A program made the translations under genes and the position numbers. A stretch of 64,000 bases of DNA, from contig NZ_CP009122.1 in NCBI RefSeq assembly GCF_000803645.1, positions 4,068,501 through 4,132,500 of the forward strand, read 5' to 3'. The DNA is from Sphingopyxis fribergensis (GTDB taxonomy: Bacteria > Pseudomonadota > Alphaproteobacteria > Sphingomonadales > Sphingomonadaceae). This document shows, piece after piece, positions 46,710 to 61,501 of this stretch; the stretch's first letter is position 1; the number at the start of each line of letters is the position of its first letter. The notes below the pieces were generated by a model. That model was not told where the DNA came from. It did no database searches and saw nothing but the letters and a program-made list of their open reading frames with translations.

Positions 46710-48032
46710 CTATGTTCCCGGCCGCCATTCCGAGGCGATCAACCCGCCTTCGCCAAACAGCCGCTCCATCGCATCCGGACCCGCCGCCGCGTCGCGCAAC
46801 CTGTCCGCCAGCGGATCGTCGATCGGGTGATCGCTTCGCAGGAAAGCGATCCACGCCGCGATTGCCGCCTCCAGCGAGGGGCACCGCTGCCCGCGTGCCT
46901 GGTGCCACGCGAGCGTTTCGAGCCAGCGCTGCGGGATCTTCTGGCTGCCGTCCATCGCGATCTGGATCAGCCGGTGATGCAGCGCCGGATTGGCGAAGCG
47001 GTCGAGCAGGGCGCCCGCATAGGCGGTCAAATCCTGGCCGGGCAGGGCGGCGATTGTCGGCGCGGCCTCGCCCAGCATCAATCGTTCGATGAGCAGGCGG
47101 ATTTCGGGGTCGGCAATCGCCTGATGGACGAATTCATGTCCCTGGCCGAGCCCGATATAGGCGAGCGCCGAATGCGCGCCGTTGAGCATGCGCAGCTTGG
47201 CGGTTTCATAGGGCGCGACGTCAGCGACCAGCTCGGCGCCGACATCTTCCCAGCGCGGGCGGGGACCGGCGAAATCATCCTCGATCACCCATTGGCTGAA
47301 GCTTTCGGTGGCGACAGTCCCTTCGTCGCGCGCGCCGAACACCGCTTCGACGGCGGCGCGGGCGGCGTCGGTCGTCCCGGGGACGATGCGATCGATCATC
47401 GTTGCGGGGCAGCGGCATTCGCTGTCGAACCATGCCGGTAAATCGGGATGACAGGCCGCAAGATATTCGCGCATCAGCCGGCGCAACACGCCGCCATTGC
47501 CCGCCAGATTGTCGCAGCTGAGTAGCGTGACGCCGCCGCGCCCCCCCGCCTTGCGCGCGGCGAGGCCGGCAGCGACGAAACGATAGAGGCTCGCCGGCCC
47601 GCGCGCCGCGTCAAGATCGAGCGATCCGTCGGCGCGGCGCAGATAGCCCTTCTCGGTCACAGTAAAGCTGACGATATGCGTCGTCGGTGCGGCGATGGCG
47701 TCGATGACGGCCTGCGGATTTTCCGACGCGACCAGCACCCGTTGCACGACGCCGATCATCCGCAATTCGCTGCCCGTCGCGCTGCGCGTCGCGACGGTGT
47801 AGAGCCCGTCCTGCGGGTTCAGCTGCGCCGCGACGTCGCCCGAGCGCAGCGACACGCCGATGATGCCCCAACCCGCGTCGCCCGCGGCCATCGCATCGTC
47901 GGTGTAGACCGCCTGATGCGCGCGGTGGAACGCGCCGATGCCGATATGGACGATGCCGGCGGTTTGGGCGGAACGGTCATAACCCGGCGCCCGCACCGAT
48001 GGCGGCAGCGGCGTTTGCGCGGTCAGCCTCAC
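46710..48032 (-). CDS. uxuB: Fructuronate reductase (D-mannonate oxidoreductase)
   Basis: 440 residues starting with GTG at 48032. A long-chain mannitol dehydrogenase family member: NAD motif HIGIGAFHRAH (29-39), and the catalytic set Lys279, Asn284 and His287 in KLRMLNGAHSALAYIG. In uronate catabolism it reduces D-fructuronate to D-mannonate with NADH. The family also includes tagaturonate reductase and mannitol dehydrogenase; the coupling to uxaC (GTGA overlap) favours UxuB. It is the last gene of the hydratase-exuT-uxaC-uxuB unit. Confidence 0.9.
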   Translation of the reverse strand: MRLTAQTPLPPSVRAPGYDRSAQTAGIVHIGIGAFHRAHQAVYTDDAMAAGDAGWGIIGVSLRSGDVAAQLNPQDGLYTVATRSATGSELRMIGVVQRVLVASENPQAVIDAIAAPTTHIVSFTVTEKGYLRRADGSLDLDAARGPASLYRFVAAGLAARKAGGRGGVTLLSCDNLAGNGGVLRRLMREYLAACHPDLPAWFDSECRCPATMIDRIVPGTTDAARAAVEAVFGARDEGTVATESFSQWVIEDDFAGPRPRWEDVGAELVADVAPYETAKLRMLNGAHSALAYIGLGQGHEFVHQAIADPEIRLLIERLMLGEAAPTIAALPGQDLTAYAGALLDRFANPALHHRLIQIAMDGSQKIPQRWLETLAWHQARGQRCPSLEAAIAAWIAFLRSDHPIDDPLADRLRDAAAGPDAMERLFGEGGLIASEWRPGT

Positions 48033-49441
48033 AGCTTGTACGCGGCCTTGGCGAGATTATAGCTGAGGTCAGCTGCGAGTTCGGCGGCTTCCCATTCTTC
48101 CATCCGGTGTTCGGCCACGAGCTGCGCCAGAAAGCCGCAGTCGATGCGCCGCGCGACGTCGTGGCGCGCGGGGATCGACAGGAAGGCGCGCGTGTCGTCG
48201 TTGAACCCGACGCCGTTGTAGAAGCCCGCTGTCTCGGTCATCTGGTTCCTGAAGCGCCGCATCCCTTCGGGGCTGTCGTGGAACCACCAGGCGGGTCCGA
48301 GCTTCAGCGCCGGATAATGGCCCGCGAGCGGCGCCAGTTCCCTCGCATAGCTCGTCTCGTCGAGGGTGAAGAGGATGATCGTCAGCCCGGCTTCGTTGCC
48401 ATAGCGTCCGAGCAGCGGGCGCAGCGCGTGGACATAGTCGGTCGCCATCGGGATGTCGGCGCCCTTGTCGCGGCCATAGTTGGCGAACAGCCATGGATTA
48501 TGATTGCGGAACGCGCCGGGGTGGATCTGCATGACGAGGCCGTCGTCGAGGCTCATCCCCGCCATCACCGTCAGCATATGCGCGCGGAACAGCTCGGCAT
48601 CGGCGGCGCTGACATTTGCGCCGGTGACGCGCGCGAACAAGGCTTCGGCCTCGACATCGGACAGATCGGCGGTCGCCGCGGTCGGATGGCCATGGTCGGT
48701 CGAGGTCGCGCCCATGTCGGCGAAGAAGGCGCGGCGGCCCCGGTGCGCGGCGAGGTAGCCCGCGTAGCTGAAGGCATCCTCGCCCGACAACTCGGAGAAA
48801 CGCGCGAGATTGTCGCGGAAGCCCTCAAATTCGGGATCGACGACCGGGTCGGGGCGATAGGCGGTGATGACGCGCCCGCCCCATTCGCCGCTGGCGTTGG
48901 CGGCGCGGATCGCGGCGTGATGGGCGAGCGTGTCGAGCGGGCTTTCGGTCGTCGCGATCACCTCGATCCCGAAACGGTCGAACAGCGCGCGCGGGCGGAA
49001 GGCGTCGGTCGCGAGCGCTTCGGTGATGCGGTCGTAATAGAGATCCGACGTCTCGGCCGAAAATTGCACGTCGAAGCCGAAGGCCTCGGCGAACACCCAG
49101 TCCATCCACATGCGGCTCGGCGTGCCGCGGAAGAGATGATAATTTTCCGCGAACAGCCGCCAGCTTTCACGCGGGTCGGCATCGGGGTTGCGGATGCCTA
49201 GCGCGTCGAGGGCTATTCCCTGCGAATAGAGCATCCGGAACACATAATGATCGGGATGGAGCAGCAGCTCCGCCGCATTGCCGAACGGCGCATTGCCCGC
49301 GAACCATGCCGGATCGGTGTGCCCGTGCGGGCTGACGATCGGCAGGCCGGCGACCTCCTTATAGAGCCGACGCGCGATGTCCCGCTGCGCCGGATCGGAC
49401 GGAAAGAGGCGGTCGGGGGAGAGATGCAACGGACGCGGCAT
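48029..49441 (-). CDS. uxaC: Glucuronate (uronate) isomerase
   Basis: 470 residues. The metal-dependent-hydrolase-type barrel begins with the metal ligands of LPIVSPHGHTDPAWFAG (His39, His41). Later family motifs: FRGTPSRMWMDWV, ATTESPLDTLAHH, MQIHPGAFRNHN, and KLGPAWWFHDSPEGMRRFR. It interconverts glucuronate with fructuronate and galacturonate with tagaturonate. Start at ATG 49441, five bases after the transporter stop. Confidence 0.96.
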   Translation of the reverse strand: MPRPLHLSPDRLFPSDPAQRDIARRLYKEVAGLPIVSPHGHTDPAWFAGNAPFGNAAELLLHPDHYVFRMLYSQGIALDALGIRNPDADPRESWRLFAENYHLFRGTPSRMWMDWVFAEAFGFDVQFSAETSDLYYDRITEALATDAFRPRALFDRFGIEVIATTESPLDTLAHHAAIRAANASGEWGGRVITAYRPDPVVDPEFEGFRDNLARFSELSGEDAFSYAGYLAAHRGRRAFFADMGATSTDHGHPTAATADLSDVEAEALFARVTGANVSAADAELFRAHMLTVMAGMSLDDGLVMQIHPGAFRNHNPWLFANYGRDKGADIPMATDYVHALRPLLGRYGNEAGLTIILFTLDETSYARELAPLAGHYPALKLGPAWWFHDSPEGMRRFRNQMTETAGFYNGVGFNDDTRAFLSIPARHDVARRIDCGFLAQLVAEHRMEEWEAAELAADLSYNLAKAAYKL

Positions 49442-49445
49442 GGGA

Positions 49446-50753
49446 TCAGGCTTTGCTTTCGACGGTCACCGGCGCGAGGCGCGGGCTCAAGATATGGACC
49501 GCGAGCACGGCGAGGAAATAGACGGTCGTGCAGGCGGCGAAGATGATCGTGTAATTGCCCCCCGTCGCATCGAGCACCAGCCCGGTCGATTTCGCCATGA
49601 TCATGCCGCCGATACCGCCCATGAAGCCGCCAAGCCCGATCACCGAGCCGACCGCGCGTTTGGGGAACATGTCCGGCGGGATCGACAGGATCGTCGACGA
49701 AAAGGCTTGGTGCCCGGCGAGCGCGATGCCGATCAGCACGACCGCGAGCCACATATTCGCGAGCCCGGTGACGAACAGCAGCGGCAGCACGCAGAGGCCC
49801 GCGCCGATCATCGTGACCTTGCGCGCGAAATTGACGCTGTGGCCCGACTGGATCAGCTTCGACGACACCCAGCCGCCGAGAATGCTGCCGACGTCGGAGA
49901 GCAGATACATGATGATCATCGGCAGCAGGACGATCTTCAGATCGACATTATAGGTGGTGCTGAAATATTTGGGCAGCCAGAAGAGCATCAGGAACCACAC
50001 CGGGTCGGTCAGGAATTTCGCCATCGCAAAGGCCCAGGCCTCGCGCTTGGTGACGATCTTGCCCCAGCCAAGGCGTTCGATTTTTTCGGGCGGGTCATGT
50101 TCGATCCACGCAAGTTCGGCCTCGCTGACCTTCCCGCTTTCGCGCGGGTTGCTGTAGAGCCAGAGCCATAGGATCAGCAGCAGGACGCCGAAAGCGCCGG
50201 TGTAGATGAAGGTTTCGCGCCAGTCGAAACCGAGCACGCGCATGCACAAGGCGACCGTCGGCGCGGTCAGGATGACGCCTATCGTCGTCGCGCTGTTGAC
50301 CCAGCCGATCGCGTAGGAGCGTTCCTTTTGCGGGAACCACTCGCTCGACGCGCGGACGACCGAGGGGAAATGCCCCGCCTCGCCGACGCCGAGGATGACG
50401 CGCGCGAGCATGAAGGAGATGACCGACGAGGCGAAACCGTGCGCGACATGGCCGACGGTCCAGATCGCGATGGCGATCCCATAGCCGATTTTGGGCCCGA
50501 AACGGTCGATCAGCCAGCCCATGAGAAGGAAACCCATCGCATAGGCGGCCTGGAAGGCGGTGACGATGTTGCCATAGTCATTCTCGCTCCACCCAAGCTC
50601 GCTGCCGAGCGTCGGGGCGAGCAGGCCGAGCATGGTGCGGTCGATATAATTGACCGTGGTCGCGGCGAACAGCACCGCAACGATCAGCCAGCGGTAGCGG
50701 CCCGACTTCGGCACCGGCGACGCCGCACCTCCGTCCGCGAATGACTGTGCCAT
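49446..50753 (-). CDS. Hexuronate transporter, MFS (ExuT-like, ACS family)
   Basis: 435 residues, 12 membrane helices. The N-terminus is typical of the anion:cation symporter branch: RWLIVAVLFAATTVNYIDRT, and the GEAGHFPSVVRASSEWFPQKER segment between helices 4 and 5 is a hallmark of ExuT/GudP-type proteins. It should bring in glucuronate, galacturonate or unsaturated/deoxy uronates from the periplasm. Gene context with uxaC and uxuB supports hexuronate. Confidence 0.92.
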   Translation of the reverse strand: MAQSFADGGAASPVPKSGRYRWLIVAVLFAATTVNYIDRTMLGLLAPTLGSELGWSENDYGNIVTAFQAAYAMGFLLMGWLIDRFGPKIGYGIAIAIWTVGHVAHGFASSVISFMLARVILGVGEAGHFPSVVRASSEWFPQKERSYAIGWVNSATTIGVILTAPTVALCMRVLGFDWRETFIYTGAFGVLLLILWLWLYSNPRESGKVSEAELAWIEHDPPEKIERLGWGKIVTKREAWAFAMAKFLTDPVWFLMLFWLPKYFSTTYNVDLKIVLLPMIIMYLLSDVGSILGGWVSSKLIQSGHSVNFARKVTMIGAGLCVLPLLFVTGLANMWLAVVLIGIALAGHQAFSSTILSIPPDMFPKRAVGSVIGLGGFMGGIGGMIMAKSTGLVLDATGGNYTIIFAACTTVYFLAVLAVHILSPRLAPVTVESKA

Positions 50754-50775: not shown

Positions 50776-51561
50776 TTAGCCTGTGATGGAGCAGCTGACG
50801 CGGATTTTTCCGTCGAAGACTGCGTCGGCGCGCTGGCCCGGTCTGATTTCGTGAATTCCGGTGATCGCCCCTGCCGACACCCAGGTGCCGGGCGCGATCG
50901 CGATGCCGCGCGCGCGCAGCGTGCGGATCAGGAACAGCGCCGATCCGAAGGGACCGTCGAGCATGGTGCCCATCGTCGCAGCGCCGACGGCCTGGCCGTC
51001 GATCGCCATTTCTACCGGCATCGCGATCAGGTCGGCGTCGCGCCAGTCGGGGATCGACGGACCGAGGATCAGCCCCTTGTTGTTGCCATAATCGGATGCG
51101 GTGACCGCGGGGCCGTGGCGGTTGATCTGGGCGAAGGGCGAACTCGCAATCTCGATCCCGGTGCGCACGTCGGCGATACAATCGCGGACCGAAGCCAAAT
51201 TATAGTCGCGCGCGCCGACCTCGCCGAAGCAGAGCAGCACCTCGGCCTCGGCCGCGGCAAAGCCCGCAGCATAGACGGGCATCGCGGGCACCTGCCCATC
51301 GCTGCCGTCGAATATTTCGTCACTGAAGATCGGCCCGGTCAGGCGATTGTCACGATAGCGCTCGACGAATTCCGCGGCGATACGACCGACCTTCCAGCCG
51401 CCGACCCGCCGCCCGTCGCGCGCGATGGCCGTATCCTGAATTGCATATGCGTCCGCCATCGTCTGCGGCATTGCGCCAGGATAGGCAGGAAGCGGTGTCT
51501 TTTCCGCGCGCGCTGCCAGAAAGGCACGGGCGATATTTTCCTGTTCGGGGCTTGCCGACAT
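50776..51561 (-). CDS. MhpD-like (2-keto-4-pentenoate hydratase/decarboxylase family) protein
   Basis: 261 residues from the ATG at 51561. FAH-fold family member in the MhpD branch: GGWKVGRI, GPIFSDEIFD, AAGFAAAEAEVLLCFGEVGARDY with the metal-binding Glu residues, and TGIEIASSPFA. Enzymes of this branch hydrate 2-oxopent-4-enoate or decarboxylate related 2-oxo acids, usually in aromatic meta-cleavage routes. Here it heads a uronate operon, so its job is unclear: perhaps a 2-keto-3-deoxy-type sugar acid intermediate. An ACACCGGTGT operator lies 38 bases upstream. Confidence 0.8.
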   Translation of the reverse strand: MSASPEQENIARAFLAARAEKTPLPAYPGAMPQTMADAYAIQDTAIARDGRRVGGWKVGRIAAEFVERYRDNRLTGPIFSDEIFDGSDGQVPAMPVYAAGFAAAEAEVLLCFGEVGARDYNLASVRDCIADVRTGIEIASSPFAQINRHGPAVTASDYGNNKGLILGPSIPDWRDADLIAMPVEMAIDGQAVGAATMGTMLDGPFGSALFLIRTLRARGIAIAPGTWVSAGAITGIHEIRPGQRADAVFDGKIRVSCSITG

Positions 51562-51598
51562 CTTTGTAATTTTCCCTCTTCCGTCAAAACACCTAAGA

Positions 51599-51612
51599 GA
51601 CACCGGTGTCAA
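51599..51612 (-). promoter_or_regulatory. Putative LacI-type operator fused to a -35 box (hydratase operon)
   Basis: Perfect 12-base palindrome GACACCGGTGTC at 51599-51610; on the minus strand it reads TTGACACCGGTGTC, so it starts with a consensus -35 hexamer. It lies 38 bases before the hydratase ATG. The matching -10 is weak, so the transcription start is uncertain. Confidence 0.72.
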
Positions 51613-51659
51613 AGGCAAGCAAATAGCGAATAGGATCTGCGGACTTATGTACGACAGTC

Positions 51660-52664
51660 TTATCGCCTGACGTCGAGCCCGCCGCTGTGGAATGCGTCAA
51701 TATCGGCTTGGCAGAACCGGCTCGCGTCGCCCGGCAGCGAATGTTTAAGCGCGGTCAGCGCCAGGCCCGATTCGGCCATCGCCTTCGCGTCGCCGCCCGA
51801 AAGATGCGCATGGAGCACCCCAGCGGCAAAGGCGTCGCCAGCGCCGATGCGGTCGACGATGCCCGTCACATCGACGTCGGGGGTCTGATAGCCGTCGCCG
51901 CGCAAATCGACGCGCGCGGCGATGCGGTGATGATCGGCGGTGAGCGTGTGGCGTGCGGTCGAGGCGATCAGCTTGAGATCGGGGAAAGCGGCGAAACCCG
52001 CCTCGGCCGCCTCGCGCCGCCGGTCCTCGCCTTCGCCGCTGAACTCCCTGCCGAGCACGAGCGACAGGTCGCGATGGTTGCCGAACAATATGTCGGCGGT
52101 GCCGATGAGTTCGGAAAGGACCCCGCGCGGATCGCTGTCCCACGCCTCCCACAGCATCGCGCGATAATTGCCGTCGAAACTGACGGGAACGCCGCGCCGC
52201 TTCGCCGCGCGCGCCGCGGCGAGCGCCGCCTCGGCCGAGCGCGGCCCGAGCGCGGGGGTGATGCCTGAAAGGTGGAGCAGGCCCGCGCCTTGCAGCAGCG
52301 CGTCCCAGTCATAATCCTCCGCGCCCGTCGCCGCAAAGGTCGATCCGGCCCGGTCGTAGACGATTTCGGATGACCGCAGCCCCGCCCCGACGCTGAGGAA
52401 ATAGAGCCCCATGCGTCCCGGGCCGCTGGCGATCGCGGAGCAATCGACGCCCGCGCCGCGCACCGCCGCTACAGCTCCACGACCCAGCGCGTTGTCGGGG
52501 ACCCTGCTGACCATCGCGCAATCGTGGCCGAGATGCGCGAGTCCGATCGCGACATTCGCCTCAGCGCCTCCTACGTGCAGCGACAGCGACGGCGACTGCA
52601 TCAGCAGCTCATTGCCCGGCGCGGTGAGGCGGATCAGCAGTTCGCCGAAAAAGACTAAGGTCAT
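51660..52664 (-). CDS. kdgK: 2-keto-3-deoxygluconate kinase
   Basis: 334 residues from the ATG at 52664. PfkB-family sugar kinase: VFFGELLIRLTAPG at the start, SLHVGGAEANVAIGLAHLGH, VSFDGNYRAMLWE, and the C-terminal catalytic IVDRIGAGDAFAAGVLHAHL with the catalytic Asp and anion hole. Substrate: 2-keto-3-deoxygluconate to KDPG, where both the UxaC/UxuB route and the KduI/KduD route meet. Start is ten bases after the kduD stop and has only a weak ribosome site. Confidence 0.9.
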   Translation of the reverse strand: MTLVFFGELLIRLTAPGNELLMQSPSLSLHVGGAEANVAIGLAHLGHDCAMVSRVPDNALGRGAVAAVRGAGVDCSAIASGPGRMGLYFLSVGAGLRSSEIVYDRAGSTFAATGAEDYDWDALLQGAGLLHLSGITPALGPRSAEAALAAARAAKRRGVPVSFDGNYRAMLWEAWDSDPRGVLSELIGTADILFGNHRDLSLVLGREFSGEGEDRRREAAEAGFAAFPDLKLIASTARHTLTADHHRIAARVDLRGDGYQTPDVDVTGIVDRIGAGDAFAAGVLHAHLSGGDAKAMAESGLALTALKHSLPGDASRFCQADIDAFHSGGLDVRR

Positions 52665-52674
52665 GGGCGCAATG

Positions 52675-53421
52675 CTAGCGCGCGAGCCAGCCGCCGTCGA
52701 CGGCGAGGATATGGCCCTGGACATAGTCGGACGCCGACGAGGCGAGGAACACGGCCGCACCGCCGATGTCGCTGGGGTCGCCCCATCGACCGGCCGGGAT
52801 GCGCTCGATGATCTGGCGGTTGCGCGTCTCGTCGCCCTGCAGCGCGGCGGTGTTGTTCGTCGCGATATAGCCGGGTGCGATCGCGTTGACCTGCACGCCC
52901 TTCGCCGCCCACTCGTTCGCGAGCAGCTTGGTGAGGCCCCCGACCCCCGATTTCGACGCAGTATAGCTCGGTACGCGGATGCCGCCCTGAAAAGTCAGCA
53001 TCGAGGCGATGTTAATGATCTTGCCCGAACCGCGCGCGATCATGTGGCGGCCGACACTCTGGCAGAGGAAGAAGAGCGTCTTGAGATTGGTGTCCATCAC
53101 CGCGTCCCAATCAGCCTCGGTGAAATCGACCGCGTCGGCGCGGCGGATGATCCCGGCGTTGTTGATGAGGATGTCGATGTGGCCAAATTCAGCGAGCACC
53201 GCATCGACGAGCGGCTGCACCGCGCCGACGCTCGACAGGTCGGCGGCGAAATTCTCGGCCCTTCGGCCAAGCCCGCGCACCTTGCCCACGGTCTCGTCGG
53301 CGGGCGAACGGCCCGCAGCGGCGATATCCGCCCCGGCTTCGGCGAGCGCGAGTGCGATCCCCTGCCCGATGCCGGTGTTGGCACCCGTGACGAGCGCGAC
53401 TTTCCCTGTGAGGTCGAACAT
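52675..53421 (-). CDS. kduD: 2-deoxy-D-gluconate 3-dehydrogenase / 2-keto-3-deoxygluconate dehydrogenase-type SDR
   Basis: 248 residues from the ATG at 53421, 6 bases after GGGAAG. SDR motifs: TGANTGIG, NNAGIIRRADAVDF, IASMLTFQGG, YTASKSG. The NNAGI-RR-A-F and SMLTFQGG pattern is typical of KduD, which reduces 5-keto-4-deoxyuronate-derived 2,5-diketo-3-deoxygluconate (DKII) to 2-keto-3-deoxygluconate. Placed between kduI and kdgK, so identity is well supported. Extending the frame into the upstream repeat is not justified. Confidence 0.93.
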   Translation of the reverse strand: MFDLTGKVALVTGANTGIGQGIALALAEAGADIAAAGRSPADETVGKVRGLGRRAENFAADLSSVGAVQPLVDAVLAEFGHIDILINNAGIIRRADAVDFTEADWDAVMDTNLKTLFFLCQSVGRHMIARGSGKIINIASMLTFQGGIRVPSYTASKSGVGGLTKLLANEWAAKGVQVNAIAPGYIATNNTAALQGDETRNRQIIERIPAGRWGDPSDIGGAAVFLASSASDYVQGHILAVDGGWLAR

Positions 53422-53439
53422 CTTCATCTTCCCATACTT

Positions 53440-53507
53440 CGTCATACCGGACTTGATCCGATATTCGGCGGCGTTGTCTGGACCCCGGATCAAGTCCGGG
53501 GCGACGA
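53440..53507. repeat. Intergenic palindromic repeat, family A, copy 5 (within the kdu operon)
   Basis: CGTCATACCGGACTTGATCC on the left, GATCAAGTCCGGGGCGACGA on the right. It lies between kduI and kduD inside one operon, where it could act on transcript stability or partial termination. Confidence 0.8.
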
Positions 53508-53515
53508 TGAATGAA

Positions 53516-54358
53516 TTATGACAGCTGGCAGATGTCGAGGACATTCATGTCGGTATAGTCCTGATTCTCGCCCGCCATCGCCCAGATGAAAGCGTAGGAT
53601 TTCGTGCCCGCACCCATATGAATCGACCAGGGCGGCGAGATCACCGCTTCCTCATTCTGCATAACGATGTGGCGCGTCGCCTCACCCTCGCCCATGAAAT
53701 GCATGACGCGGTCGTTGTCGACATTGTCGAGTTCGAAATAGAAATAAATCTCGCTGCGCCGCTCGTGGATGTGCGGCGGCATGGTGTTCCACACGCTGCC
53801 TTCCTTGAGCACGGTCAGCCCCATGACGAGCTGCGCGCTGTCGCAGACCCCCGGAATGACGAGCTGGTAGATAGTGCGTTCGTTCGATTCGGCGAGGCTG
53901 CCGCGATCGAGCGCATTCGCGTCGGCGATGCCGAGCTTGCGCGTCGTGAACGCCTTGTGCGCCGGGCACGACGCCAGATAGTAACGCGCGCCCTCGCCTG
54001 CGAACTCGACGTCCTTGGCGCCCATCGTCACATAGAGGCAATCCTTGTTGCCGAGCGTGAAGCTCTCGCCGTCCACAGTGACCGCGCCTTCGACGGAGGA
54101 CACGTTGACGATCGCGAGCTCGCGGCGCTCGAGGAACGGATGGCCCGCGGCCGAAGGCGGCTCGCTCTGCGCCGGCAGCTTGACCGGCGTCGAACCGACG
54201 GCAACCCCGCCGATCACGAAACGGTCGGCGTGGGTGTAGTTGAGGACGCACTCGCCGGTGCGGAACAGGTTCTGGATCAAGTAGCGATCGCGCAGCTCCG
54301 CGTTCGACACCTCTTCCATCATCACGGGATGGGTGGCGTAATAGGTCTTGGAAAACAT
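53516..54358 (-). CDS. kduI: 5-dehydro-4-deoxy-D-glucuronate isomerase
   Basis: 280 residues, same length as E. coli KduI. Zinc ligands match the known set: His196 and His198 in [13 protein letters not shown], Glu203, and His247 in [10 protein letters not shown]. It isomerises 5-keto-4-deoxyuronate (DKI), the ring-opened form of the unsaturated uronate made by polysaccharide lyases, to DKII. It opens the kduI-kduD-kdgK operon. The operator at 54411 lies 52 bases before its ATG. Confidence 0.97.
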
Positions 54359-54410
54359 TGGATCGCATCCTCGCTCAAGATTTATGACTTGTCGCCTTGC
54401 TAGATTTGAT

Positions 54411-54425
54411 GGTAACCGGTGTCAA
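54411..54425 (-). promoter_or_regulatory. Putative LacI-type operator with -35 box (kduI operon, lacI)
   Basis: GGTAACCGGTGTCA at 54411-54424 is identical to the one at 60074-60087 and shares ACCGGTGTCA with all copies. Minus-strand reading is TTGACACCGGTTACC, so it includes a -35 hexamer for kduI. The LacI gene begins 102 bases away in the other direction, so autoregulation is possible. Confidence 0.68.
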
Positions 54426-54526
54426 GAGATGTTCGCGCCACCTCGGGGCGTTGATTTTACGCTTTCAAGCGCCCATCAGCATGGAAAGCGCGAGCCGGGC
54501 CAGAGGCTTGCAGGGGAAAGATAGAT

Positions 54527-55576
54527 ATGGCGGCACAGAATAAGGCGCCGGGGGGCAAGCAGCCGACGATCAACGATGTCGCGGCGCTTGCGGGGGTTTC
54601 GAAAAAGACCGTGAGCCGGGTGATTAACCGGTCCGAATTCCTGACCGACAAGACGCGCGCCGCAGTCGAAAAGGCGATCGAACAGCTCGGTTTCGTCCCC
54701 AATCCGCAGGCGCGCGCGCTCGCCTTTCGCCGCAATTTCCTGATCGCTTTGCTCCACGACAATCCGAACGCGCAGACGGTGCTCAATTTCCAGCGCGGCG
54801 TGCTCGACGCGATCAAGGACAGCGACCTCGCGTTGCTCGTGCGTCCGGTCGACCGCACTTCGGACGCGATGCTCGAAGACGTGCGCACCTTCCTCGAAAA
54901 ACAACGGCCGATCGGCGCGATGCTGTTGCCGCCGATCTCCGAAAATGACGACCTCGCTGCGCTTTGCGAGAATCTGGGCGTGCGCTATGTCCGCATCGGG
55001 TCGGCGCCGCTCGACGACGCCAAACATTGCATTTCCTCAAACGATCGCGAGGTCGTGGCCGAAGCGGTGCGCCGGTTGATCGCGCTCGGTCATCGCCGCA
55101 TCGGCTTCGTACGCGGCCCGGTCGGATTCCGTTCGGCCGCCGAGCGCGAAACAGGCTTTCTCGAAGCGCTCGCCGACGCCGGGCTCGAACTTCCGGCCGA
55201 ATTCAACGCGCCGGGTAATTACCGCTATACCGCGGGCATCGAGGCCGGCGAAGCCCTGCTGTCGCTCGCCGCGCCGCCGACGGCGATCTTCTGCTCGAAC
55301 GACGAGATGGCGGCGGGCGTGATGAGCGTCGCGCACGGCAAGGGCGTGAAGGTGCCCGAGCAGCTTTCGATCATCGGCTTCGACGACAGCCCGACCGCGA
55401 CGCATATCTGGCCCGCGCTCAGCACAGTGCGTTGGCCAATTCACGAGATGGGCATCCGTGCCGCGCAAACGCTGGTGCCCGACTTCCTTGCCCCGGGAAC
55501 CAAGGTCGCCGAGGATGCGGTTCTCGCCTCGACCTTCGTCGAACGCCAGTCGGTCGCCCCGCCGCCGGGAAGCTAG
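54527..55576 (+). CDS. LacI-family transcriptional regulator of the uronate locus
   Basis: 349 residues. The N-terminal LacI helix-turn-helix is TINDVAALAGVSKKTVSRVINRSEFLTDKTRAAVEKAI, followed by the hinge helix (FVPNPQARALAF) and a periplasmic-binding-protein-like effector domain (GRRIGFVRGPVG-like RIGFVRGPVGFRSAAERETGF, then FCSNDEMAAGVMSVA). ATG behind AGGGGAAAG. It is divergent from the kdu operon and convergent, 3 bases apart, with the lyase-like gene. By analogy with other uronate loci its effector is likely a deoxyketo-uronate. Confidence 0.93.
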   Translation: MAAQNKAPGGKQPTINDVAALAGVSKKTVSRVINRSEFLTDKTRAAVEKAIEQLGFVPNPQARALAFRRNFLIALLHDNPNAQTVLNFQRGVLDAIKDSDLALLVRPVDRTSDAMLEDVRTFLEKQRPIGAMLLPPISENDDLAALCENLGVRYVRIGSAPLDDAKHCISSNDREVVAEAVRRLIALGHRRIGFVRGPVGFRSAAERETGFLEALADAGLELPAEFNAPGNYRYTAGIEAGEALLSLAAPPTAIFCSNDEMAAGVMSVAHGKGVKVPEQLSIIGFDDSPTATHIWPALSTVRWPIHEMGIRAAQTLVPDFLAPGTKVAEDAVLASTFVERQSVAPPPGS

Positions 55577-55579
55577 TCC

Positions 55580-57259
55580 TCAGCGCCGTCGGCGCGCGAG
55601 CTGATACTCATAGAGCGACGGCGCGGCGTCGACCGCCTGCCCCGTTCCCTCGATATAGGGTGCAGGCTTGTAGCTGACGCTGATCTTGCGGTTCGCGTGC
55701 AGCCCGACGATCCGCTCGCCCGGGCCTTCGAGCCCGCTCGTGATCGCCACCGTCGCGTCGGCGGGAACGCTGTCGGGTATCACCAGCTTCGCGTTCCAGA
55801 GCGTGTTGTAAAGCCCGTGCCCAGGCTTCCAATAGGGCGCGCCACCGCCGACCCACAGCTGATATTGCCACGCCCCCTTCACCTGTTTCGGATCGATATG
55901 CATCTCGATCTGATCGAACAGATTCTGATGGTTCGACCCGCTATGCTGGTCGATGATCGCTTGCCGGTCGACGACCGAGCGCAGGAACACCGATCGCGTC
56001 GAGCGCGTGTTGATGCTGACCGGGTGGACAACCGGATTCTCGACCTTCAGATCCTTGACGAGCACATTGTGCACCGCGCCGACATGCACCGAATAATGCG
56101 CGCTGCGGTCGCCCGTCGTGGCGACGTCGGCGATCGTCAGGCTCGCCGCATTGTCGGTCAATATGCCGCTGTCCGCCCGGTCGATCGTCAGCTTTTTGAC
56201 CCAGCCATCGAACACGCCCGTCATATAGATGCCGTTATAACCCTGTTCGAGATGGTGGCCGAAGGCGGGGGCTTGTGGAAATTGCAGCCGCAGATTTTGG
56301 ATGCCGACATTGGTCAGATGCTGCCAGTCGGCGACCACCGCGGGCTGGTCGGCACGGATATCGTGGAGCAACGGATCGCCAAGCGTCACCGTCTTGCCCC
56401 GGATCGCCACAATGCGCGTCGCCTGCGCGACCACCGGCCGGTTCGGGAAGGTCCAGTGGTGCGATCCGATCGGCAGGTCGGTGTCGCCGTAGAGCGACTT
56501 CAGTATCTGGCTCTTTGGCCCGTCGACCGAAAACCATTGCAGCTGTACGACGTCGCCGACCTTCAGCTTTGCGGCATTATCGACGGTCAGCGTGCGGCTG
56601 AACTGCTTGCCCGACACGCCGTTGGCGAGCACGGGGTCGCGAACATCCTTCGTCCCGTCGTAGGAGACCGGGCGACTGCCCTCGGGCGCGACATAGATCA
56701 TCCCGCCGGACCAGGTATATTCGGTGAACAGATAGTCGATATTATTTTCGGGCTCGACCTGCTGCTTCTTCTCGCGGACGAGATATTCGCGCAATTCGTC
56801 ATAATCATGGCTTTTGTCGATGAGCTTCAGCGGGCGCGGGAACCAGAGTTCGCTGCCCCCTGGCCCATTACCCGCGCCGTCGAGTATGATGTCGCTGCGC
56901 GTGATACGCAGCACTTCGGTGATCTGTATGCGCCCCTTGGGGAAACGCAGCGTCACCTTGCCCTTGACCGCGTTCGCCACGGCGAGTGCGCGCAGCACCG
57001 CCTTCGTATCGTCGAGCCCGTCGTCGGGGATCGCGCCATGATCGGTCACGTCAACGATCGTTCCCGCATCGGCAGGGATCGGCGCGAGGCCGAAGCCATA
57101 GCCGGCGTAGCTGAAGTCGGGGAGCGGGTTCGCGGCGGCCGTTGCCGGATCCGAAAGGATCCTGGGCAATGTCGTCGGCTGCGCCTCTAGCGGGAAAGTC
57201 AGTGCCGCGCCGAGCGCCAGAACCGAAACGAAGCGCGCACGCTGATTACCCGAAATCAT
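55580..57259 (-). CDS. Secreted beta-helix polysaccharide-active protein (putative uronan lyase or hydrolase)
   Basis: 559 residues from the ATG at 57259. Signal peptide (RARFVSVLALGAALTFPLEAQ). Residues about 80-160 (IVDVTDHGAIPDDGLDDTKAVLRALAVA then VTLRFPKGRIQI) match the pectate-lyase-3 / GH28-related start of right-handed beta-helix enzymes. The rest is helix-like repeats (SDIILDGAGNGPGG, LTIADVATTGDRSAHYS), with a C-terminal part (QLWVGGGAPYWKPGHGLYNT) that recalls DUF4955-type proteins. I cannot assign it to a known lyase or hydrolase family. The TonB receptor just upstream and the kdu genes imply it acts on a uronic acid polymer outside or in the periplasm. Confidence 0.72.
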   Translation of the reverse strand: MISGNQRARFVSVLALGAALTFPLEAQPTTLPRILSDPATAAANPLPDFSYAGYGFGLAPIPADAGTIVDVTDHGAIPDDGLDDTKAVLRALAVANAVKGKVTLRFPKGRIQITEVLRITRSDIILDGAGNGPGGSELWFPRPLKLIDKSHDYDELREYLVREKKQQVEPENNIDYLFTEYTWSGGMIYVAPEGSRPVSYDGTKDVRDPVLANGVSGKQFSRTLTVDNAAKLKVGDVVQLQWFSVDGPKSQILKSLYGDTDLPIGSHHWTFPNRPVVAQATRIVAIRGKTVTLGDPLLHDIRADQPAVVADWQHLTNVGIQNLRLQFPQAPAFGHHLEQGYNGIYMTGVFDGWVKKLTIDRADSGILTDNAASLTIADVATTGDRSAHYSVHVGAVHNVLVKDLKVENPVVHPVSINTRSTRSVFLRSVVDRQAIIDQHSGSNHQNLFDQIEMHIDPKQVKGAWQYQLWVGGGAPYWKPGHGLYNTLWNAKLVIPDSVPADATVAITSGLEGPGERIVGLHANRKISVSYKPAPYIEGTGQAVDAAPSLYEYQLARRRR

Positions 57260-57326
57260 AACCCGTAATACTCCCTGCGGTCTCAACCATGGCGGCGCGC
57301 GACCCACCCCGCCATGGCGAGACCCT

Positions 57327-59939
57327 TTAGAACTTCGCGCGCACGCCGACCGAGAAGCGCCGTTCGGACAGGGCGTAGCTGTTGAGCGCGGTCGTGTTGA
57401 AATTGCTATACTCGCTCGTCGCCGATTTCTTGGGCATCAGATTCTGCGCTTGCAACGACAGCGCGATATTCTTCGTGAGGTCGAGCCCGACCTGCGCGTC
57501 GAGCTGCGAGCGCGAGCCGACGAAGCTGGGGCGTCCCTGCGAAAATTCGAACACCGCCTCGTCGCGGTAATTATAGGCGAGACGCGCCGAGAAAGGGCCT
57601 TTCTCGTAGAGGCCGACGAGGTTGTAGCTGTTCTTCGACACCGCGACGAGCGGGAAGCCCGCATTATCCTCGGCGTCCGAATAGGTATAGTTGGCGATGA
57701 CGCCAAAGCCGTCGAGCGGCGAGGGCAGGAAGTCCAGGAATTGCTGGATGCCGATTTCGAACCCCTTGATCTTCGCGCTCGCAAGATTCTCCGGGCGCGA
57801 GAAGGTCAGTTCGCGGCCCTGGTCGTCAAGATTGAGGTCGACGCCGGTGGTTACGAAATTGGCGATGAAATTCTTGACGTCCTTGTAGAAAAGCGCGCCC
57901 GAGATCAGCGAACTTTTGCCCGTATAATATTCGAAGCTGATATCGGCCTGCGTCGCGATCGGCGGTTCGAGATTCACATTGCCACCGGTGACCGACAGGT
58001 TCGTCGCGTTGAAGAAGGTCGATGGTGCAAGATCGGCGATCGAGGCGCGCTGCATCGTCTGCGATCCCGACACGCGGATCAGGAAATCGTCGCTGATGTT
58101 GAACGCGATATTCGCGCTGGGCAGGACGTTGGTATAGCGGTTCTTGTCGGTGACCAGCGTGCTGACCGCGCCGACATTGACATAGCTGTCGACCGACAGG
58201 CGCGTCGAGGCGATACGCACCCCGGCGTTGGCCTTGTACGGGATGCCAGCGATCTCGCCTTCGCCCGACACCATCAGGTAACCCGCGAGCGTCTTTTCGC
58301 TGAAGTCATAATCGCGCTGGAGATTGGGCAACAGGGTCGAGCGGCCGTTCGGATCGGGGTTGGGTTCAGCCCCCTGCGCGCGGTTGAAGACATAGTCGAA
58401 GGTCGGCGCGGTGCTCAAAAAACTGCGCGGGAAGGTGCCGGGCATGTCGGTCAGGAAATCGCCCGCGTCGACCAGCTTCAGATAGGGCTCGATCTCGTCG
58501 CGGGTCGGCGTGACCTGGCTGCGGAAGGCGTTCGAGCGCGCGTGGAGGTCGGTATAGCGCACCCCCGCCGCGATCGTGACCCCGCCCCCCGTCTCATAAC
58601 TGACGTCGAGCTTGCCCGTCCATTCTTCGAGCAGGCCGAGCAGGCGGTTGCTGCGCACGCCGTTGGTCGCGGGATTGTAGGACGCGTAATCCGTTGGATC
58701 GAACGTGCCCCCAAGCGTCAGCGACGGGACCGTCTGGTCCCGAAAATCGAACGCGCCGGGCACCGCGGCGGTCCCTTGCAAGGTGATGATCTGGATCGTC
58801 TGGTCGATCGTGCCCTTGCTGTAATAGCCGTCGGCCTCGATCGTCAGCCCGTTGTCGCCCTGATATTTACCGTTGAGCCCGTAGAGGAAGCTTTCGGTCG
58901 GCTCGTTGCGGATCTGTCCGGCGGTGGTGACCGTGCCATTGGTATTGCCCGCGACGACCATGCCGTCGTCCACCACCGCGCCCGTCACCGGATTGGTGCC
59001 GGTGGGCAGGCGAAAGGCGAAGAAGTCCTGGCGGCGCCCGGTCTTGAGCTTCGAATAGAGCGCGTCGGCGGTGATGGTGAATTCGGGCGTCACCTCGAAC
59101 TGGATAGCGCCGTTGAGGCCGAGCCGCGAGCGGTCGACCGTGAACTGTTCATATTGCAGCAGCACCGGCGTCTGTTGAACCGTCGTCGTCCCACCGGCGG
59201 TGTAATTACGGTTGAGGAAATTGTTGCGCTCGAACGTCTGCGTCGTCGAGGTGCGCTTCTGATATTCGCCGGCGAGCATGACGCCGATACGGCCGTCGGC
59301 GAACTTGGTCGTCGCAAAGCCGGTGATCGCGGGTTCGAACTTGTCCGAATTTTCCGAATAAACACCCTGCGCGCGGAGCGAGATCGTCGGCTCCTTGAAT
59401 GACAGCGGCTTCGGCGTGACCAGGTTCACCGTGCCGCCAAGCCCGCCCTCGGCATTGCTCGCGAGCGGCGATTTGCGCACTTCAAGGCGGCCAAACAGGC
59501 TGGAGGGCACCGAATCGAGCCCCGACGAACGGCCGAGCTGGTCGTTTTCGGGCGGCGAAAGACGCGCCGACCAGCCGAGCAGCGTGCGCCCGTCGACCTC
59601 GACGCGCACCTGCTGCAGGCCGCGCACCGACACCGACTGGCCTTCGCCGAAGACGCGGGTGATCTGAACGCCGGTGACGCGCTGAAGCGCCTCGGCGACG
59701 TTGGCGTCTGGCAGCTTGCCGACGTCCTCGGCGGTGATGACGTCCATCACCTGCGACGCTTCGCGCTTGATGTCGGCCGCCTGTTCGAGCGAGGCGCGAA
59801 TGCCGGTGACGATGATCGCGTCATCCTCGGGCGCCGCCGCGGCATCCTGCGCATAAGCCGAAGCAGTCGCCAATATGGCAAGCGATGCCCCGCCCGCCAG
59901 TCGTGCCAACGCGTGCACGCCCCTCATCCGAATAGCCAT
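57327..59939 (-). CDS. TonB-dependent receptor for a uronate oligomer
   Basis: 870 residues from the ATG at 59939, 6 bases after GGGAGG. Signal peptide (ARLAGGASLAILATASAYAQ), then a DAIIVTGIRASL TonB-box-like start and plug domain (VMDVITAEDVGKLPDANVAEALQRVTGVQI, SVSVRGLQQVRVEVDGRT). The remaining part is a 22-stranded barrel ending in FSVGVRAKF with the terminal aromatic residue. This is the Xanthomonas/Caulobacter-type receptor group, used for carbohydrates. It is the first gene of the receptor-lyase unit and has two operators upstream. No SusD partner, as expected outside Bacteroidetes. Confidence 0.93.
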   Translation of the reverse strand: MAIRMRGVHALARLAGGASLAILATASAYAQDAAAAPEDDAIIVTGIRASLEQAADIKREASQVMDVITAEDVGKLPDANVAEALQRVTGVQITRVFGEGQSVSVRGLQQVRVEVDGRTLLGWSARLSPPENDQLGRSSGLDSVPSSLFGRLEVRKSPLASNAEGGLGGTVNLVTPKPLSFKEPTISLRAQGVYSENSDKFEPAITGFATTKFADGRIGVMLAGEYQKRTSTTQTFERNNFLNRNYTAGGTTTVQQTPVLLQYEQFTVDRSRLGLNGAIQFEVTPEFTITADALYSKLKTGRRQDFFAFRLPTGTNPVTGAVVDDGMVVAGNTNGTVTTAGQIRNEPTESFLYGLNGKYQGDNGLTIEADGYYSKGTIDQTIQIITLQGTAAVPGAFDFRDQTVPSLTLGGTFDPTDYASYNPATNGVRSNRLLGLLEEWTGKLDVSYETGGGVTIAAGVRYTDLHARSNAFRSQVTPTRDEIEPYLKLVDAGDFLTDMPGTFPRSFLSTAPTFDYVFNRAQGAEPNPDPNGRSTLLPNLQRDYDFSEKTLAGYLMVSGEGEIAGIPYKANAGVRIASTRLSVDSYVNVGAVSTLVTDKNRYTNVLPSANIAFNISDDFLIRVSGSQTMQRASIADLAPSTFFNATNLSVTGGNVNLEPPIATQADISFEYYTGKSSLISGALFYKDVKNFIANFVTTGVDLNLDDQGRELTFSRPENLASAKIKGFEIGIQQFLDFLPSPLDGFGVIANYTYSDAEDNAGFPLVAVSKNSYNLVGLYEKGPFSARLAYNYRDEAVFEFSQGRPSFVGSRSQLDAQVGLDLTKNIALSLQAQNLMPKKSATSEYSNFNTTALNSYALSERRFSVGVRAKF

Positions 59940-60073
59940 TGTCATCCTCCCACCTCGAAAACCAGTTCGTGTGAACCGCTTTTTCAGAAATTCCCGGAGA
60001 GATATGCGGGGCCGTGACCTTGTGGCCGACCAAAACATCCCCTCACGCATATTGTTTTGTTATCACCGATCTA

Positions 60074-60087
60074 GGTAACCGGTGTCA
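60074..60087 (-). promoter_or_regulatory. Putative LacI-type operator 1 of the TonB receptor
   Basis: GGTAACCGGTGTCA, identical over 14 bases to the site at 54411. Lies about 135 bases before the receptor ATG and just downstream of the likely -10, a typical repressor position. Confidence 0.68.
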
Positions 60088-60106
60088 TGGACTATCCAAA
60101 ATTGAT

Positions 60107-60119
60107 ACACCGGTGTCAA
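60107..60119 (-). promoter_or_regulatory. Putative LacI-type operator 2 of the TonB receptor, with -35 box
   Basis: Perfect 10-base palindrome ACACCGGTGT (60107-60116); minus-strand reading TTGACACCGGTGT fuses a -35 hexamer to the operator. 33 bases from operator 1 centre to centre is about 31, close to three helical turns, so both would face the same side of the DNA. Confidence 0.7.
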
Positions 60120-60302: not shown

Positions 60303-61496
60303 ATGCTGGACAAAAGGTCGCTGTTGCTGGCCGGAGCCCTGTGTGCCGTTAGCCTGTCGCTTGGCGCCTGCTCAGCCGAAGAGGAAAAGGGCGGCCGCGG
60401 TGCGCCCGAGGTCGGCTATGTCGTCGCCAGGGTCGAGGCGGTGCCCGTGACCACCTCGCTCGGCGGGCGCACCGTCGCGTTCGAAACCAGCGAAGTGCGG
60501 CCGCAGGTCAACGGCCTGATCCGCCGCCGCCTGTTCACCGAAGGCGGCTTCGTCCGCGCCGGCCAGCCGCTCTACCAGATCGACCCGAGCCTCTATCAAG
60601 CGGGGGTCGAACAGGCCGCGGCAAATCTCGCCAGCGCCCGCGCGAGCGCGCAGGCTGCGGAGGAGCGCGCGCGCCGCCTCGAACCGCTGGCCAAGATGCA
60701 GGCCGTCGCCGAGCAGGATTATACCGACGCACTGGCAGAGGCGCGGATGGCGCGCGCGGCGATCGCCCAGAATAACGCCGCGCTCGAAACCGCGCGGATC
60801 AACCTCCGCTATGCGACGATCACCGCGCCGATCAGCGGACGCATCGGGCGCAGCCTCGCGACCCCCGGCGCGCTCGTCAGCGCGAGCCAGGCGACCCCGC
60901 TCGCGACGATCCAGCAGACCGACCCGATGTATGTCGACATGCAGCAGTCGAGCGCCGAACTCACGCGGCTGCGCCAGGCGATCGAGAGCGGCGGGGTGAC
61001 AGCGGGCAGCGCGTCGGTGCGACTGCGGCTCGAGGATGGCAGCGCCTATGGCCCGGTCGGCACCGTCCAATTCTCCGAAGTCACGGTCAGCGAGGCAACC
61101 GGCACGGTGACGCTGCGCGCACGCTTTCCCAACCCGCGCGGCGTGTTGCTGCCCGGCATGTTCGTGACCGCATTGTTCGACCAAGCGGTGAACCCGTCGG
61201 CAATCCTGTTGCCGCAGGCCGCGGTCCAGCGCGATTTCGACGGCTCGGCCTTCGTCTATCTCGTCGGCAAGGACAATAAGGCGGCGCGGCGCAAGATCGT
61301 CGCCGACCGCACCGTCGGCGCCAACTGGGTCGTCACCGACGGGCTGAAACCGGGCGAGCGCGTGATCACGCAAGGGATCGGCAATTTGCGCCAAGGGGCG
61401 CCGATCCGGCCGGTGCCCGCGAGCAGCGTACAGCGGGTGGGAGCACAACCCAAGGGTGCCGCGACGGGCGGCACCGCCGAAGCCAAGGGCAAGTAG
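60303..61496 (+). CDS. RND efflux periplasmic adaptor lipoprotein (AcrA/MexA-like)
   Basis: 397 residues from the ATG at 60303. Signal peptide with lipobox LGAC (Cys23). Lipoyl/hairpin region (VNGLIRRRLFTEGGFVRAGQ, YQIDPSLYQAGVEQAAANL), and the beta-barrel domain with NLRYATITAPISGRIGRSLA and VTLRARFPNPRGVLLPGMFV. It bridges the inner-membrane pump to an outer-membrane channel such as TolC; no channel gene is seen before the window ends. The pump gene starts 5 bases after its stop. Confidence 0.94.
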   Translation: MLDKRSLLLAGALCAVSLSLGACSAEEEKGGRGAPEVGYVVARVEAVPVTTSLGGRTVAFETSEVRPQVNGLIRRRLFTEGGFVRAGQPLYQIDPSLYQAGVEQAAANLASARASAQAAEERARRLEPLAKMQAVAEQDYTDALAEARMARAAIAQNNAALETARINLRYATITAPISGRIGRSLATPGALVSASQATPLATIQQTDPMYVDMQQSSAELTRLRQAIESGGVTAGSASVRLRLEDGSAYGPVGTVQFSEVTVSEATGTVTLRARFPNPRGVLLPGMFVTALFDQAVNPSAILLPQAAVQRDFDGSAFVYLVGKDNKAARRKIVADRTVGANWVVTDGLKPGERVITQGIGNLRQGAPIRPVPASSVQRVGAQPKGAATGGTAEAKGK

Positions 61497-61501
61497 CGCC
61501 C

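Follow-up and report, generated by a model that had tools for sequence, protein, structure and literature searches.

The window, by which we mean the whole 64 kb stretch of Sphingopyxis fribergensis DNA that was analysed, holds three minus-strand operons for the handling of polyuronides (hydratase-exuT-uxaC-uxuB, kduI-kduD-kdgK and TonB receptor-lyase), with the gene of a LacI-family regulator lying on the opposite strand between the second and the third (Table 1). The names ExuT, UxuB and KdgK are those of best matches that fell below cut-off. The hydratase-like protein at the head of the first operon has no Pfam match, its closest solved relative is a 2-oxopent-4-enoate hydratase (34.7 bits), and we know of no step in the known uronate pathway that needs it. 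The product encoded downstream of the receptor matches a hyaluronate-lyase model weakly (70 bits against a cut-off of 1100) and forms a beta-helix in its predicted structure (mean pLDDT 74); as a Foldseek search of that structure returned generic beta-helix matches only (phage tailspikes, GH110 and lyases, with TM-scores of at most 0.43 normalised to the query and up to 0.50 normalised to the target), its enzyme class is given as lyase or hydrolase.

Table 1. Genes, candidate operators and related features of the window, and the second polysaccharide locus outside it
Feature	Position	Strand	Basis and remarks
UxuB-like fructuronate/tagaturonate reductase	46710..48032	-	top NCBIfam model fructuronate reductase, under its cut-off (322 bits against 603); Pfam Mannitol_dh
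UxaC, glucuronate isomerase	48029..49441	-	NCBIfam equivalog above cut-off; PF02614
ExuT-like MFS transporter	49446..50753	-	top NCBIfam model D-galactonate transporter, under its cut-off; MFS_1
2-keto-4-pentenoate-hydratase-like protein	50776..51561	-	operon head behind operator A; weak NCBIfam and PDB matches
Candidate operator A	51598..51611	-	AGACACCGGTGTCA on +; 43 bp before hydratase start; matrix score 22.0
KdgK-like sugar kinase	51660..52664	-	PF00294; NCBIfam KDG-kinase models below cut-off
KduD	52675..53430	-	NCBIfam TIGR01832 above cut-off
KduI	53516..54358	-	NCBIfam NF002091 above cut-off
Candidate operator B	54411..54424	-	GGTAACCGGTGTCA on +; in the kduI (-)/lacI (+) intergenic region; 59 bp upstream of kduI; matrix score 22.4
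LacI-family regulator, proposed repressor	54527..55576	+	PF00356 and PF13377 above cut-off
Beta-helix protein, probably a lyase or hydrolase of polysaccharides	55580..57262	-	downstream of receptor
TonB-dependent receptor	57327..59942	-	operon head behind C and D; TIGR01782 above cut-off; PF00593, PF07715
Candidate operator C	60074..60087	-	GGTAACCGGTGTCA on +; 138 bp before TonB receptor; matrix score 21.9
Candidate operator D	60105..60118	-	ATACACCGGTGTCA on +; 169 bp upstream of receptor start; spaced 31 bp from C; matrix score 14.2
Promoter-like TTGACA-N17-GATAGT	60119-60091	-	consensus match only; 1 found against 0.3 expected in shuffles
Second polysaccharide locus	L123 995-13096		GntR/FCD regulator, DUF4861, ManD-type mannonate dehydratase, GH3, GH88-family, TonB receptor, two alginate-lyase-family genes

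The ten-base core ACCGGTGTCA occurs four times in the window, each time on the plus strand (51602-51611, 54415-54424, 60078-60087 and 60109-60118). All four sites listed in a preliminary sequence-only reading were thereby recovered from the window sequence, where the exact core has no further copy, and they stand upstream of the three minus-strand units as that reading had proposed, their centres falling 43 bp (hydratase), 59 bp (kduI) and 138 and 169 bp (receptor) before the start codons of the operon heads. Its account of the motif held in part: the core is common to all four sites, whereas the perfect ten-base palindrome ACACCGGTGT is found at two of them (from 51600 and 60107), and operators B and C both read GGTAACCGGTGTCA. 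Markov models (orders 1-3) fitted to the window sequence predict between 0.06 and 0.14 exact copies of the core over both strands, so that four within 8.5 kb, all of them intergenic, lie well above chance. Scored with a symmetric matrix built from the sites of related loci, operator D does not exceed a match that lies within the receptor gene (14.4, at 57977), and its case rests on conservation in two related loci, L046 and L054. Taken over the relatives' loci and the window, the operator has a central CG and an even length, with perfect 14-bp palindromes at only 2 of 264 sites; it is an imperfect, polar palindrome.

Genome-wide (5.2 Mb) there are 11 exact copies of the core, four in the window and seven outside, compared with roughly 4.5-11 expected when the window models are scaled to the genome and one for a reversed-pattern control, and the bare ten-mer is thus not enriched at this scale. 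Six of the 11 are concentrated in two places, the window cluster and a pair at 4180155 and 4180186 that has the same 31-bp spacing as C and D and precedes a second TonB receptor about 48 kb to the right of the window end. Two PF05426 alginate-lyase-family genes follow this receptor and GH3 and GH88-family genes come before it, and from its sequence the locus is probably a further target of the candidate repressor, outside the window. Its ManD-type mannonate dehydratase (best chain 3thu, 804 bits) may provide the mannonate step that is missing from the window cluster, and could do so without this operator; the matrix scan found no site scoring at least 12 upstream of the ManD gene. The sequence-only reading had envisaged a single regulon and not a scatter over many unrelated genes, and apart from the second polysaccharide locus the exact ten-mer turns up at five scattered places, a chance-level number. 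Three of these lie inside reading frames (in L001, L011 and L002, the last close to the beginning of a frame resembling GDP-mannose dehydratase), and a fourth (L003/L124) is intergenic and of weak context, scoring 14.4 before a methyltransferase-like frame. The fifth (L004/L125, at L125 9479-9498) scores 18.9 and is also intergenic, reversed, about 120 bp before another TonB-receptor-like frame of unrelated appearance, and is the least certain of the stray copies; the cluster beside it has a LacI of its own. When one mismatch was permitted, the degenerate pattern TRRYAMCCGGTKNYA gave no signal (30 genomic places against 46 for its reversed control), and GRNWMCCGGTGTCA matched 27 places against 12.

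Conservation was followed in the best 80 of 163 related loci, fetched by their match to the LacI protein and not by their sites. With the window included, 79 of these 81 loci carry the exact core ACCGGTGTCA, with a total of 264 sites, the exceptions being L078 and L089, and a scan with the symmetric matrix free of the ten-mer requirement added only 24 places at a score of at least 13.5, one of them the match inside the window's receptor gene. Counting sites within 320 bp upstream of genes whose start is covered and which lie away from the locus ends, an operator precedes 55 of 56 hydratase genes, all 63 TonB receptors, 16 of 17 uxaA genes and 25 of 27 genes for an rpiB-type isomerase, and is also found at kduI (25/38), where the position of operator B is kept, at uxaC (10/25) and at lacI (73/80). 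By comparison, operon-internal genes are almost free of upstream sites: none was seen at exuT (31 genes), uxuB (20), kdgK (56) or kduD (65), and two at the 19 lyase genes. Sites thus stand before operon heads and mostly not before internal genes. Gene content varies among the loci, KduI alternating with an isomerase of the RpiB/LacAB type, and UxaA, pectate lyases and a TRAP solute-binding protein joining in some relatives. Among the 16 loci with a receptor of the window's type, the window's own included, 12 have one forward site, one has a forward and a reversed site, and three (the window, L046 and L054) have the 31-bp tandem pair. Were the four sites chance matches, the genome-wide number of ten-mers would be accounted for, being close to what some base-composition models predict, but their crowding into intergenic DNA of the window and the same placement in relatives from other genera make this explanation extremely improbable.

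The protein encoded beside operator B has an N-terminal LacI helix-turn-helix (PF00356, 66.5 bits against a cut-off of 27) followed by a periplasmic-binding-protein-like effector domain (PF13377, 120.5 bits against 26.5), to which a PHROGs search added nothing. Enterobacterial KdgR is a regulator of the IclR family, whereas it is LacI-family models that the window protein matches. As read from its sequence, little of the protein follows the effector domain and no obvious tetramerisation helix is present, so that a dimer is expected. Across the best 80 of 163 relatives its identity ranges from up to 96% within Sphingopyxis down to 58%, and each residue of the recognition helix VSKKTVSRVIN is common to 73-77 of the 80. 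In a sample of 199 genomes of the family, where a match of at least 365 bits was taken as an orthologue, the motif GRWAACCGGTGTCA was present in 52 of 53 genomes with the orthologue and 14 of 146 others (Fisher p 1.3e-33, a value that ignores relatedness). Among the matches listed, it stands no more than 250 bp from lacI in 37 of 41 genomes, and 111 of 129 motif places in orthologue genomes are within 20 kb of the gene. The one orthologue genome lacking an exact copy, G091, has a variant site (score 21.3) about 140 bp before a uxuB-like gene. Of the 14 genomes with the motif and no strong LacI, 12 were looked at (leaving G071 and G184 aside): G052 has the regulator in two pieces at 48-50% identity, together with the gene cluster, G141 has uronate genes beside the motif sites on short contigs, and the other ten carry isolated copies away from uronate genes, the sole exception near such a gene being one 37% match to the short-chain dehydrogenase KduD.

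Conservation at operon heads, absence before most internal genes, co-occurrence, closeness to lacI and a near-invariant helix together point to the local LacI as the regulator, the role for which the sequence-only reading had put it forward, and the four sites are very probably its binding sites. It might be argued that a different regulator binds them and that the local LacI merely happens to be nearby, since the genome encodes further LacI-family proteins (eight matches, the next best at 38% identity), a GntR/FCD regulator adjoins the second locus, and some genomes have the motif with no strong LacI orthologue. Against this stand the steep difference in co-occurrence, the closeness of motif and gene, the near-invariance of the helix and the different helix, SQPTVSR, of the paralogue beside the stray site of L125, and we consider a different regulator very unlikely.

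Taken as a whole, the reading that we propose, and hold to be highly probable from sequence comparison, is that LacI binds operators A-D and represses the three operons of the window, its own gene and the second TonB-receptor locus, until a keto acid releases it. Its own repression would be exerted through the shared operator B, which also lies in the lacI promoter region, and control would in this way extend over three operons, lacI and one more locus in the S. fribergensis genome. The releasing molecule would be a compound formed as uronates are degraded, for which 2-keto-3-deoxygluconate or a closely related keto acid is the likeliest choice, and polyuronide uptake, depolymerisation and degradation might thereby be switched on together. 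The identity of the effector is a guess by analogy with PtxS of Pseudomonas, a LacI-family protein whose operator and effector are given in the available part of PMC5902321 as TGAAACCGGTTTCA and 2-ketogluconate. The likeness lies in the family, in an ACCGGT core shared by the operators and in the keto sugar acid bound by PtxS; it is drawn from the operator strings alone, and, unlike the operator here, that of PtxS is a perfect palindrome, with gluconate and 2-ketogluconate genes as its targets (PMC5902321).

Such a local LacI regulon, reaching beyond the window, is of a kind already known, a sugar-gene control circuit of an ordinary sort for which the support is good. Six LacI groups, KdgR, UxaR and UxuR among them, are counted for glucuronate and galacturonate in the accessible text of Ravcheev et al. 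2014 (PMC4052901), and local LacI-family sugar regulons described there share with ours an even operator with central CG, few pathway-specific targets and likely autoregulation, but the operator here is conspicuously asymmetric, with one direction kept. The term Sphingomonadales does not occur in the main text of that paper. Pectin and uronate genes are likewise controlled by KdgR in enterobacteria and Thermotoga and by UxaR in Thermotoga, yet in the portion of PMC3750489 available Thermotoga UxaR is a GntR-family protein and Thermotoga KdgR a homologue of the enterobacterial repressor. The bringing together of TonB receptor, inner-membrane transporter, enzymes and regulator agrees with the carbohydrate loci of Blanvillain et al. 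2007 (PMC1790865), which in its available sections sets out such an inventory for each carbohydrate and names Sphingopyxis alaskensis with related receptors, and which in those sections contains no sphingomonad uronate operator. Neither the motif nor a LacI regulon for uronates in sphingomonads was found described in the open-licence literature searched, and an earlier in-silico description may exist. Uronate uptake and breakdown in sphingomonads thus gain a candidate regulator, a motif and a target set. As these bacteria have many TonB receptors with no assigned substrate, the motif could help to link receptors and lyases to polyuronide use, and it flags a conserved hydratase-like gene that may have a role in the uronate pathway.

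The one unusual trait of the regulon is the direction of its operator. At uxaA (16/16), the rpiB-type isomerase (25/25), kduI (25/25) and uxaC (10/10), every gene that has a site upstream has the TGACACC half at the end farther from it, and so do all 55 hydratase cases, two of which are perfect palindromes. Of the 63 TonB receptors, 61 have a forward site and 38 a reversed one, and lacI, which mostly sees reversed sites because it shares the site of its neighbour, has 73 reversed and 2 forward among 80. Neighbouring sites of opposite orientation point outward in 42 cases and the other way in none. These counts are not independent, the loci being related, and the asymmetry itself was partly built in by a search that fixed one half-site, which does not apply to orientation relative to the gene. 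Polarity fails as a universal rule: a recognised gene lies in the forward direction from 226 of the 265 sites, in the reverse direction only from 26 (15 beside lacI, 6 before receptors and 5 upstream of a TRAP-type solute-binding gene) and in neither from the remaining 13, and dctP-like genes have a reversed site in 7 of 11 cases and a forward one in none.

At the receptor operon operator D overlaps the first hexamer (-35) of the promoter-like sequence and, judging from the spacing, operator C would fall in the expected region of transcription start, so that control at this operon probably works by obstructing RNA polymerase. A scan for the promoter consensus at operators A and B found no promoter-like match. 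That LacI, once bound, might instead act chiefly by activation, or by forming a roadblock downstream of promoters that it leaves uncovered, would suit the distance of C and D from the start codon, the reversed second site near the start of many relatives' receptors and the want of a general promoter register, but is rendered rather unlikely by the overlap at D and by the position of A and B, which is the usual one for a repressor. A shared -35/-10 layout was considered as the cause of polarity: in the kduI promoters of Sphingopyxis the operator's TTGACA stands, by eye, 17 bp before a conserved TA (+16/+17 from the centre), and these and the receptor promoter at D are the only ones that fit, a forward scan for the -10 element over six promoter groups having given no common register. 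The reversed second sites before receptors likewise argue against this layout as a general cause. That the operator is truly directional, either as a polar unit in which half-site and -35 are fused or through a dimer bound in a fixed direction that matters for control, is a tentative proposal that we think more doubtful than probable. DNA looping was rejected on helical phase, oppositely oriented pairs showing no 10.5-bp coherence (0.19).

Outward-facing sites occur in pairs in L041 (2641-2789) and in similar loci of many relatives, in the DNA that separates a TonB receptor from a divergent pectate-lyase-like gene; the commonest spacing is 143-146 bp (24 of 42 pairs), and each site serves the one gene that lies forward of it. 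On the far side of operators C and D, the gene divergent from the window's receptor opens an operon (60303-64000) that is efflux-type by reading; a reversed site is also present at this gene in 15 of 23 relatives, and is probably incidental.
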